Shown here piece by piece: positions 676 to 44,293 of a stretch of 44,430 nucleotides of DNA. This DNA is from a virus. The stretch spans positions 1-44,430 of IMG/VR virus record IMGVR_UViG_3300042922_000561. One strand, written 5' to 3'. Below the pieces are notes generated by a model that saw nothing but the letters and a program-made list of their open reading frames with translations, made no database searches and was not told the DNA's origin. Numbering within the stretch: the first letter of the stretch is position 1; each line of letters starts with the position of its first letter. Made by a program: the position numbers and the translations under genes.

Positions 676-940
676 CTTTAAACGTGTTTAATTCGTCGGA
701 CATAGCAACATCAATAATTTGTTCCCCTAAGCATAGAAGTGCATCCCTAAGCTTATTCTTTTCCTCATCGCGCAAATTAGTCTGTTTGTCCTTTTCCTGC
801 GTCGATTTGTTATTGATGCGGTGATATATACCGCCGGCCGGATTTATGTCAGTGAAGCTAGATAAAAGGGCCGACAATCGTACAATCTTGAATACATCCT
901 TAACGTTATTTATTTGCTTTTTTTCTTTATGCTTTGCCAT
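659..940 (-). CDS. Small charged hypothetical protein
   Basis: The protein has 93 residues and is rich in Lys, Asp and Glu, starting MAKHKEKKQ. No family was recognised. It overlaps both neighbours (17 bp and 14 bp), so it is probably translationally coupled between the small membrane protein and the resolvase-like nuclease. The middle section (LRDEEKNKLRDALLCLGEQ) looks helical. Confidence 0.6.
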   Translation of the reverse strand: MAKHKEKKQINNVKDVFKIVRLSALLSSFTDINPAGGIYHRINNKSTQEKDKQTNLRDEEKNKLRDALLCLGEQIIDVAMSDELNTFKDEIHP

Positions 941-1118
941 TTCTGTTTTTGTAATTTTTGTTAAAATAAATTAGTGCTATTAATAATGCAATACCCTCTG
1001 CTAATCCCACAAATATGATAGAGATTATAATTTTATCAGTTACTTGATATACGACATTAATTGAAAGCGCCGTTATCAGTAAGAAGTAAATTATTAGGGT
1101 GAATAACTTCTTGTTCAT
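927..1118 (-). CDS. Small two-helix membrane protein
   Basis: The protein has 63 residues, with two hydrophobic segments at about residues 5-24 and 30-50, and a basic tail (NKNYKNRNGKA). It overlaps the end of the GHKL-like gene by 62 bp, a long overlap for this genome. The start ATG and the clean two-helix profile support it as a real gene. A holin-like or host-membrane-modifying role is possible but cannot be shown. Confidence 0.55.
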   Translation of the reverse strand: MNKKLFTLIIYFLLITALSINVVYQVTDKIIISIIFVGLAEGIALLIALIYFNKNYKNRNGKA

Positions 1119-2394
1119 GATCCGATGTATTTGGTTGTTTTAATAATAAATCTGCATACATATCAATAAAATGCTGTTGAAATTCCCTGCTTTCATCAGG
1201 CATACCAGTTTTAACGTGCTCAAACTCTTCGATAATTGTCGAGGCTAGATAATTGTCATTTTTGTCATTTAGCATCTCGCTAAAAAACACTTCTTTATCT
1301 TTAGGATTTGCGCTTGCAATTATTTTTTTATCGTCGAATGATCCGATCTTAATTGATGTGTTCGCCGGCAAATAATAACCTTTCCTTTGTAACGTATATA
1401 TCATTGACATGATTCTTTTCCTCAGATGCAAGTTTTCATTTTCAAAAAACTCATATCTTCCGGCTTTCTTTGTTACTCCAAGTTCGGGGAAATTTCTTGT
1501 TATTATATCACATAACTCCTTACCTAGGATTAAGACATTAGATAGATCAATTGACTTATTAAACGCCATTAAAATTGAAATTTGGTTTGAAGTAGATACC
1601 ATTCTATTTCCTATTGCTTCTTTCCAACTACTTGAAAGTGTACTTCCCGACCAACGCCAATCCATCGAACTTTCAAAATGATCTTCTTGTACATTTTCAA
1701 TAAAGTACTTAATGACTTCTACTGGCGCATCACGTAGACACTTGTAGATTTCATATGAAACAGCGCCATTGTATTCCCTTAGTTCATTTAATTCAGCATC
1801 ATTTATATTATAGGAAAATACACTTGGATTACCTTTCATTTGCTTTATCAACACACCTTGTTTGAACAGCTTTATATCTCCTTTATTGTGGTAAATTGAC
1901 CGAACACCGTTTGAATGAATAGCTTTCTTGTCATGGATGAAATAATCATCCCAATTATCCATTACTAATTTGAATCCCTGGGTTAATTGGATGTAAAATG
2001 TGGTTTTATCTTCACACCCAAAACAAGTATCCTCAATTGAAATTGAATTACCACCTTCGTCAAGTGCATTACACCAAAGTTCACGAACAATCATCCATTC
2101 GATCCAGGCGTCCCCGCCCATATTTGTTGTAACGCTAGTTTTCTCCCCGTCTATATATATGATTTCAAACTCTTCGTTTCTGATAACTTCCTTTTCAGTA
2201 GTTATTGATACTTCTTTTGATCCGATGAACACACGGAAAGATAAATTATTTCTAAGCAACCAAGCCATTGAATATTTTAACCCGCTTCCCCACTGACCAA
2301 TCTTAAATTTATCATTTGCTTTAGTAGTCCCGCCCATTAATGATAATAGTCTAATATCTAATAGGCCGTCATTTTGGATTTTTAAGTACTTCAT
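1057..2394 (-). CDS. GHKL-type ATPase-like protein with permuted motif order
   Basis: The protein has 445 residues. The N-terminus carries a G1-like NDGLLD (residues 8-13) and a G2-like IGQWGSGLK (32-40). An N-box-like RELWCNALDEGG follows at 104-115, resembling the GyrB/Hsp90 box with Glu105, Asn109 and Asp112. In ordinary GHKL ATPases the N-box comes first, so this looks circularly permuted. The C-terminal part holds a conserved-looking cluster, IIEEFEHVKTG...DESREFQ (residues 387-406), which could bind metal. Nucleotide binding is inferred from the motifs and the cellular role is unknown. It has its own consensus promoter at 2431-2461 and lies just downstream of the DnaB gene. Confidence 0.6.
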   Translation of the reverse strand: MKYLKIQNDGLLDIRLLSLMGGTTKANDKFKIGQWGSGLKYSMAWLLRNNLSFRVFIGSKEVSITTEKEVIRNEEFEIIYIDGEKTSVTTNMGGDAWIEWMIVRELWCNALDEGGNSISIEDTCFGCEDKTTFYIQLTQGFKLVMDNWDDYFIHDKKAIHSNGVRSIYHNKGDIKLFKQGVLIKQMKGNPSVFSYNINDAELNELREYNGAVSYEIYKCLRDAPVEVIKYFIENVQEDHFESSMDWRWSGSTLSSSWKEAIGNRMVSTSNQISILMAFNKSIDLSNVLILGKELCDIITRNFPELGVTKKAGRYEFFENENLHLRKRIMSMIYTLQRKGYYLPANTSIKIGSFDDKKIIASANPKDKEVFFSEMLNDKNDNYLASTIIEEFEHVKTGMPDESREFQQHFIDMYADLLLKQPNTSDHEQEVIHPNNLLLTDNGAFN

Positions 2395-2430: not shown

Positions 2431-2472
2431 CAAATATAAGAACTATTTTATAACATACAAAATATTTTATAA
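2431..2472 (-). promoter_or_regulatory. Bacteroidota-type promoter with tandem repeat (P1)
   Basis: On the minus strand the -33 element TTTG (2458-2461) and the -7 element TATATTTG (2431-2438) are 19 nt apart, matching the Bacteroidota consensus TTTG-N17-23-TAnnTTTG. Two copies of a TTATAAAATA-type sequence lie 19 bp apart across the -33 box and spacer. An A-rich leader with AACAAAACAAAAC precedes the GHKL-like start codon. The DnaB stop codon abuts the element. Confidence 0.8.
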
Positions 2473-36210: not shown

Positions 36211-36254
36211 CAAATATAAGAACTTTTTTATAACGTACAAAATATTTTATAAAA
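36211..36254 (-). promoter_or_regulatory. Bacteroidota-type promoter with tandem repeat (P2)
   Basis: On the minus strand TTTG (36238-36241) and TATATTTG (36211-36218) are 19 nt apart. The TTATAAAA-type repeat occurs twice with a 19-bp period. An AACAAAACAAAATT leader follows. Confidence 0.8.
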
Positions 36255-38482: not shown

Positions 38483-38525
38483 CAAATATACAAAGTTTTT
38501 TATAAATACAAAACTTTTTATAAAA
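38483..38525 (-). promoter_or_regulatory. Bacteroidota-type promoter with tandem repeat (P3)
   Basis: On the minus strand TTTG (38509-38512) and TATATTTG (38483-38490) are 18 nt apart. The repeat TTTATAAAAA..TTTGTA occurs twice with an 18-bp period. The leader contains AACAAAACAAAACG. Confidence 0.8.
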
Positions 38526-41290: not shown

Positions 41291-41354
41291 TGTTGTTTTG
41301 TTTTGTTATTCAAATGTACAAAACTTTTTATAAACTCCAAATATTTTTATAAAA
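41291..41354 (-). repeat. 64-bp direct repeat containing P4
   Basis: Identical to 44230-44293. On the minus strand it carries TTTG (41338-41341) and TACATTTG (41311-41318) 19 nt apart, the tandem TTTATAAAAA repeat and the start of the AACAAAACAAAAC leader. It is a duplicated promoter cassette placed before an unrelated gene. Confidence 0.9.
41311..41341 (-). promoter_or_regulatory. Bacteroidota-type promoter (P4)
   Basis: Minus-strand -33 TTTG (41338-41341), 19-nt spacer and -7 TACATTTG (41311-41318). It should drive the 41079-41288 gene and the genes downstream. Confidence 0.8.
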
Positions 41355-44229: not shown

Positions 44230-44293
44230 TGTTGTTTTGTTTTGTTATTCAAATGTACAAAACTTTTTATAAACTCCAAATATTTTTATAAAA
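44230..44293 (-). repeat. 64-bp direct repeat containing P5
   Basis: Identical to 41291-41354, 2,939 bp away. It carries the promoter, the tandem TTTATAAAAA repeat and the leader start. The flanks differ, so only the promoter cassette was copied. Confidence 0.9.
44250..44280 (-). promoter_or_regulatory. Bacteroidota-type promoter (P5)
   Basis: Minus-strand -33 TTTG (44277-44280), 19-nt spacer and -7 TACATTTG (44250-44257). On the circle it follows the terminator of the 19-675 gene and opens the early gene block. Confidence 0.85.

Follow-up and report, generated by a model that had tools for sequence, protein, structure and literature searches.

A phage protein family with a block-permuted GHKL-type ATPase domain and an altered minigluzincin-like domain

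The stretch of DNA analysed here, a virus contig of 44,430 bases (hereafter the window), encodes a 445-residue protein that is almost certainly a GHKL-type ATPase with permuted blocks. Gyrase, Hsp90, MutL, MORC and histidine kinases belong to the GHKL ATPases, whose motifs follow one constant order in all the members that we know of. The textbook order is N-box, G1, G2, K/T; the order that we observed in the window protein is G1, G2, N-box, K/T. The best explanation of our results is a permuted GHKL ATPase with an S5-like middle part and an altered peptidase domain that may act as an ATP-gated clamp. We assign a probability of about 0.6 to this reading as a whole, a compromise between the near-certain permuted identity, the likely loss of classical protease activity and a clamp function at somewhat less than even odds.

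The open-access papers searched do not describe a permuted GHKL or Bergerat domain, and the text of the paper on Lydia and the Mesyanzhinovviridae mentions neither GHKL, Hsp90 nor metallopeptidases. As far as these papers go, the permuted version is undescribed and yet carried by hundreds of phages. The displaced N-box also explains why these proteins escape the standard GHKL models; most of them carry the label hypothetical, even in well-studied phages (YuA, M6 and Lydia, for example). A displaced N-box in so large a natural family would show that the Bergerat fold can bear block permutation and would test which connections matter for ATP-driven clamp closure. Conventional versions exist in a sister subfamily, so that the two forms can be compared directly.

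The gene and its relatives

The minus-strand reading frame described in the first-pass annotation is present (Table 1) and contains every motif quoted there: NDGLLD (N8 to D13), IGQWGSGLK (I32 to K40), RELWCNALDEGG (R104 to G115) and IIEEFEH (I387 to H393) followed by DESREFQ (D400 to Q406). The claimed succession of G1, G2 and N-box was likewise confirmed. The stop-to-stop frame spans 453 codons, against 445 residues in the reading frame. Because it opens only 8 codons before the ATG, no in-frame N-box has been missed upstream; a hidden N-box due to a wrong start is further ruled out by homologues that share the start position and by a promoter-like site located there. A small hydrophobic reading frame (927-1118, minus strand, 63 aa) shares about 60 bases with the 3' end of the gene.

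Table 1. Positions of the gene, its promoter-like site and the parts of the encoded protein in the window
Feature	Position	Strand	Basis
Gene for the 445-aa permuted GHKL-type protein (phrog_8203 family)	1057..2394	minus	Reading frame; phrog_8203 match, E 6e-46; homologues in 72 isolated-phage records
Bacteroidota-type -33/-7 promoter, TTTG-N19-TATATTTG	2431..2461	minus	About 36 nt upstream of the start codon; pattern count; shared spacer and leader
Block B, residues 1-83: G1-equivalent strand, lid segment, G2 helix, three strands	2146..2394	minus	hhalign with conventional relatives; structure model
G1-like motif NDGLLD, residues 8-13, Asn8 for the usual Asp	2356..2373	minus	Conservation in the 57-member alignment (A2)
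G2 motif IGQWGSGLK, residues 32-40	2275..2301	minus	G33, G36 and G38 in 57/57
Block A, residues 84-122: strand, N-box helix, strand	2029..2145	minus	Separate hhalign match, E 7e-8; order tests
N-box RELWCNALDEGG, residues 104-115	2050..2085	minus	R104, E105, N109 and D112 in 57/57
Block C, residues 123-222: K/T strand (T131), then YNI...NELR (E204, R206), S5-like middle part	1729..2028	minus	Colinear with conventional relatives; T131, E204 and R206 invariant
C-terminal minigluzincin-like domain, residues 322-418	1141..1431	minus	VIA-align, Foldseek, hhalign
EExxH replacing HExxH, residues 389-393	1216..1230	minus	E389 and E390 in 57/57, H393 in 56/57; HExxH in conventional relatives
DESREFQ, residues 400-406, counterpart of D-x-T-R-x-F-E of intact peptidases, with E replaced by Q406	1177..1197	minus	A2 and hhalign

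The profile match to phrog_8203 (E 6e-46) was accompanied by a match of the first 60 residues only to positions 45-102 of phrog_6077 (E 4e-9). Using tblastn, relatives were identified in 72 records of isolated phages, of which 65 match across 80% or more of the protein, with 21-30% identity. These include Yuavirus, Bordetella, Stenotrophomonas, Synechococcus and Bradyrhizobium phages, and most are annotated as hypothetical, with a few labelled "HATPase", "ATP-binding protein" or "metallopeptidase". Among viral contigs, a profile search yielded 343 relatives among 380 pattern matches, and the best 80 of these 343 were carried forward; scanning the same contigs with the window protein as a single sequence returned no matches, and an alignment query was needed. 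Bacterial genome contigs contributed 22 relatives, the closest being from Chitinophagaceae such as Niabella. The window protein matched no GHKL model in Pfam, no sequence in the PDB at an E-value of 10 or below, and no defence family in PADLOC; its identification as a known defence protein was rejected on the last count.

Conservation was assessed on an alignment of 57 diverse members (A2) sharing 22-45% identity with the window protein. Eighteen positions are invariant in all 57: G21, K25, G33, G36, G38, T89, G93, W97, R104, E105, N109, D112, T131, E204, R206, E389, E390 and D400. Three more are nearly so (N8 in 54, H393 and Q406 in 56 each). We take G33, G36 and G38 to be the G2 glycines and T131 to be the K/T motif, and E105 and N109 are presumably, by analogy with GHKL proteins, the catalytic base and the Mg ligand of the N-box. 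In the middle domain, R206 may sense the gamma-phosphate. Conservation of this kind goes beyond chance, and homologues lacking conserved Gly and Asn motifs, which the first-pass annotation named as a refutation, were not what A2 showed. Its G1 assignment stands in part: NDGLLD is there, but the usual Asp is replaced by Asn8, the position being Asn in 54 and Ser in 3 of the 57 members, and the second G1 Gly is I, L, V, F or A. The Asp of G1 reads adenine in known GHKL proteins. All other residues of the nucleotide pocket are invariant in A2.

At two loci, L025:875-1675 and L026:4001-4801 (267 aa), the first half of the permuted ATPase is joined to the end of a DNA methyltransferase-like sequence, either by fusion or by rearrangement.

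Order of the ATPase blocks

Relatives with conventional motif order, in Xanthomonas phage phiXF1 and Escherichia phage LNA4, were reached by way of weak tblastn hits across the G2 region. Both proteins match phrog_6077 (E 1e-103 and 6e-136, respectively), and their similarity to HATPase_c_3 is weak and below the cut-off. A plasmid protein of Aneurinibacillus also has the conventional order, matches HATPase_c_3 above the cut-off and ends in HEQVH...DRTREFE. We divided the conventional domain into blocks A (N-box), B (G1 to G2 and strands) and C (K/T strand to RDR), with cut points chosen from the alignment. Block B, which is second in ordinary GHKL proteins, comes first in the permuted protein, and block A, which is N-terminal in ordinary ones, is relocated.

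When aligned to the native A-B-C order with hhalign, the permuted family scored 136.4 (E 1.3e-20) with the N-box skipped, and residues 85-115 separately matched the N-terminus of the conventional relatives (E 7e-8). The B-A-C reordering produced a single colinear match of 201 columns with a score of 192.5 (E 1.6e-29). Scores for the remaining block orders were 97-142, and shuffling the N-box (A) columns within B-A-C gave at most 149 in 30 trials; the orders B-C-A, A-C-B, C-A-B and C-B-A and the shuffled columns, all clearly below the B-A-C score, were rejected. The comparison was repeated over the full length with a second set of 13 phage proteins (from loci L126-L143), which are conventional GHKL proteins with an intact HExxH in most. 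Here B-A-C scored 284.3 (E 5.1e-37, 398 columns) versus 232.0 for the native order, and the whole protein is therefore homologous to its conventional relatives, with one block moved. Strictly, the rearrangement is a block swap: C keeps its position, and the A+B unit alone is in effect circularly permuted.

The window protein is clearly a GHKL relative by descent. It has the Glu and Asn of the N-box (E105 and N109, in all 57 members; profile E 7e-8) and the GxxGxG of G2 (G33, G36 and G38, likewise in all 57). Two textbook features are absent, namely a G1 motif DxGxG with Asp and the usual motif order. Because the G1 Asp and Gly are not those of the superfamily, we file the permuted family as a derived offshoot rather than as a canonical GHKL member.

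In a maximum-likelihood tree of 54 rows, all 26 permuted rows fall on one side of a branch with support 100/100, which is consistent with a permutation that probably arose once. The permuted protein appears to descend from a conventional-order protein combining GHKL and minigluzincin domains. We rejected a reading of the protein as two half-domains of a tandem array, since each block is present once. Two megaplasmid proteins (L014:2285-5161 and L121:1506-4820) carry two or three tandem conventional GHKL domains followed by a C-terminal HExxH domain, and in Aneurinibacillus the tandem-GHKL protein starts part-way through a domain, next to a group II intron gene (ltrA). Tandem arrays such as those of Alkaliphilus and Aneurinibacillus might be a setting in which the permutation could arise by duplication and trimming.

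Predicted structure

AlphaFold2 run on A2 returned a model with a pLDDT of 92.5 and a pTM of 0.84. Its elements are E3-9, H14-17, H38-48, E53-57, E60-71, E74-81, E84-89, H99-113 (N-box), E117-121 and E130-136. The model of the conventional relative L128 (pLDDT 81.8) comprises E3-10, H19-31 (N-box), E37-42, E45-50, H57-62, H78-89, E94-98, E101-110, E115-124 and E132-136. Each ATPase element of one model has its counterpart in the other, the first three having moved (order 4-9, 1-3, 10 onward).

Foldseek ranked Hsp90/TRAP1 first for the permuted model, and its fold relatives include MORC2, GyrB and Topo II. With VIA-align, the permuted model begins to align at residue 151/166 of TRAP1, 81 of Hsp90 and 66 of GyrB, beyond the N-boxes of these proteins, at Z 6-7, values that for a sequential alignment of the ATPase part lie within possible background (a Z below 8 alone is unconvincing). 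The L128 control aligns from residue 21/26 of Hsp90 with Z up to 12.3. A sequential aligner drops just the relocated part, as a permutation predicts. Because Z 6-7 can be background, our case for the fold depends on the profile tests and the L128 control. The mapping of predicted elements onto L128, itself at Z 12.3 to Hsp90, supports a Bergerat fold for the permuted protein, and the model predicts that a nucleotide pocket like that of ordinary GHKL proteins forms despite the B-A-C order. The first-pass annotation had proposed a rearranged Bergerat fold to be compared with Hsp90, GyrB and MORC; the predicted fold is related to theirs, and the proposal is well supported by profiles, structure prediction and the conventional-order relatives.

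The C-terminal domain

Residues 322-418 have a minigluzincin fold. VIA-align matched them to abylysin, selecase and jannalysin at Z 7.2-7.8 over 87-92 residues and to Wss1 at Z 7.0, Foldseek gave selecase a probability of 1.00, and hhalign aligned them to bacterial HExxH domains at E 2.4e-10. The zinc motif HExxH itself is absent, its first position being Glu in 57/57 members. Conventional bacterial and phage relatives mostly have HExxH...D-x-T-R-x-F-E, versus EExxH...D-x-[TS]-R-x-x-Q in the permuted family, which places Q406 at the probable position of the third ligand. A classical metalloprotease was rejected on account of the replaced HExxH, and it is likely that classical zinc protease activity has been lost. 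The strict conservation of E389, E390, H393, D400 and Q406 in the main group nevertheless argues that the site may still do something specific there.

This conservation does not extend to the whole family. None of 17 loci examined outside A2 has EExxH, and nearly all keep the G2 and N-box motifs, so that the ATPase is the constant part of the permuted family. Seven loci (L027, L028, L029, L033, L035, L045 and L050) form a permuted subgroup that has lost EExxH and carries a distinct basic C-terminus (..FKALKRLIKF..KNFKKILFG). The C-terminal cluster that had been singled out as conserved and possibly metal-binding is thus a feature of the main group. It has a relative among HExxH metallopeptidases, but with Glu as the first ligand and probably Gln as the third, a metal-binding enzyme is doubtful.

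Promoter and genomic neighbourhood

The first-pass annotation had given the gene its own strong promoter and a place next to replication genes. A promoter-like sequence of its own is supported: the pattern TTTG-N19-TATATTTG occurs 9 times in the window where 3.0 would be expected, a count reached by none of 100 shuffles. The site upstream of the gene is one of five near-identical minus-strand copies (2431-2461, 36211-36241, 38483-38512, 41311-41341 and 44250-44280), which share the spacer TTATAAAA and an A/C-rich leader with AACAAAAC repeats ahead of the start codon. These five copies possibly constitute a phage regulon. The promoter type, together with the closest bacterial relatives in Chitinophagaceae, points to a probable host among the Bacteroidota.

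The neighbourhood was also borne out. In the window, the permuted gene lies downstream of genes for DnaB, SSB and other early-type genes and is followed by an endonuclease-like gene; in Yuavirus and Stenotrophomonas phages it comes shortly after the primase gene. No constant gene partner was found around the 80 viral relatives (best 80 of 343), whose neighbourhoods vary, and a conserved operon partner was rejected.

Possible functions

Clamp or remodelling activity is a tentative part of our proposal. ATP binding would close a dimeric GHKL-S5 clamp, in which ATP hydrolysis, dimerisation and clamp action are all presumed. E105 would act as the base, N109 would hold Mg and R206 would sense the gamma-phosphate. 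The C-terminal domain would be a pseudoprotease docking arm that captures a protein or a DNA-bound partner as its putative target. The gene has a promoter-like site of its own beside the replication genes, and the client might be phage DNA, the replisome or one of the host's defence proteins.

It is possible, at somewhat less than even odds, that the protein is an accessory factor of replication or recombination, closing on phage DNA or the replisome in the manner of MutL, MORC or gyrase. The proximity of DnaB, SSB and the endonuclease-like gene in the window, the position after primase in Yuavirus and Stenotrophomonas phages, and fold relatives that include MORC2, GyrB and Topo II all agree with such a role; the surrounding gene content, however, varies without a single conserved partner, and no DNA-binding domain was recognised in the protein.

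Another reading is an anti-defence or host-takeover effector, whose C-terminal domain would bind a host defence or housekeeping factor that ATP-driven clamp closure then locks. Besides the occurrence in many phages without a fixed partner, the promoter-like sequence of its own, the variable C-terminal regions of some members and the weak fold match to RIIA-like proteins speak for an effector. We consider it rather unlikely, given that the proximity of DnaB, SSB and primase fits a replication role equally well and that PADLOC found no defence-family match for the window protein.

An ATP-controlled metalloprotease, in which EExxH...Q would bind a metal through other ligands and cut host or phage proteins, much as a Wss1- or SprT-like protease joined to an ATPase would, is improbable. 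The fold does match minigluzincins and Wss1, E390 and H393 are kept in a site that is nearly invariant in the main group, and HExxH is intact in bacterial and phage conventional relatives; yet the first His ligand is Glu in 57/57 members, Gln occupies the probable third-ligand position in 56/57, and the 17 loci outside A2 lack EExxH while nearly all keep the ATPase motifs. We also see little chance that the block permutation is stably inherited together with a changed nucleotide preference (G1 Asp to Asn, for example for guanine) and a new EExxH...Q chemistry, used by hundreds of phages during infection. Finally, short motifs could have fallen into this order by chance in a protein unrelated to GHKL, a view that can draw on the lack of Pfam GHKL matches to the window protein. 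Against it stand the profile matches to conventional relatives (E 1.3e-20 and 7e-8; some of these relatives match HATPase models), the invariant pocket residues and the structure model with its conventional control, which make its probability negligible.

Comparison with known systems

T4 RIIA-like proteins are phage GHKL-type ATPases with a variable C-terminus, like the permuted family, and their GHKL domain is N-terminal (PMC7824862). Foldseek matches between the permuted model and RIIA-like proteins are weak (E 3e-4 to 1e-1) and a close sequence relation was not found, which gives an RIIA orthologue little support. Hsp90/TRAP1, GyrB and MORC2 have the Bergerat and S5-like arrangement of the permuted protein, with the N-box Glu and Asn, the G2 glycines and the K/T Thr; they differ in block order and in having the G1 Asp where the permuted protein has Asn. 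The minigluzincins abylysin, selecase and jannalysin, as well as Wss1, share the fold of residues 322-418 but have HExxH and Glu in place of EExxH and Gln.

The conventional proteins that combine GHKL and HExxH domains (phage contigs L126-L135 and plasmids of Alkaliphilus, Aneurinibacillus and Streptomyces) are homologous to the permuted protein over nearly the full length, as judged from full-length alignment for the phage proteins and from the C-termini for the plasmid proteins, and have the same middle and C-terminal peptidase-like domains. In contrast to the permuted protein, they present an N-terminal N-box, an intact HExxH and mostly a D-x-G-x-G G1 motif, with tandem GHKL domains in some. 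Those from L126-L135 gave no Pfam match above the cut-off among the proteins tested.

Members of phrog_6077 (Seunavirus, Abidjanvirus, Xanthomonas phage phiXF1 and Luteibacter phage Pluto) have the same ATPase elements as the permuted family and similar motifs (W..A.REL.QNA.D, IG.FGEG.K, YVGGL and YD/N...RDR). They differ in that the N-box comes first (A-B-C), no HExxH-type domain was recognised in them and the G1 Asp is Ser in most. Within Mesyanzhinovviridae, the small gene upstream of the permuted gene (Yuavirus AN14) is homologous to the one upstream of the conventional HExxH-free gene in Abidjanvirus (51% over 47 aa), and this small-gene flank is the only one common to Yuavirus and Abidjanvirus. 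Because a homologous small gene precedes each, this suggests that the permuted and conventional forms may have the same role in Mesyanzhinovviridae and that the peptidase domain may be dispensable for it.
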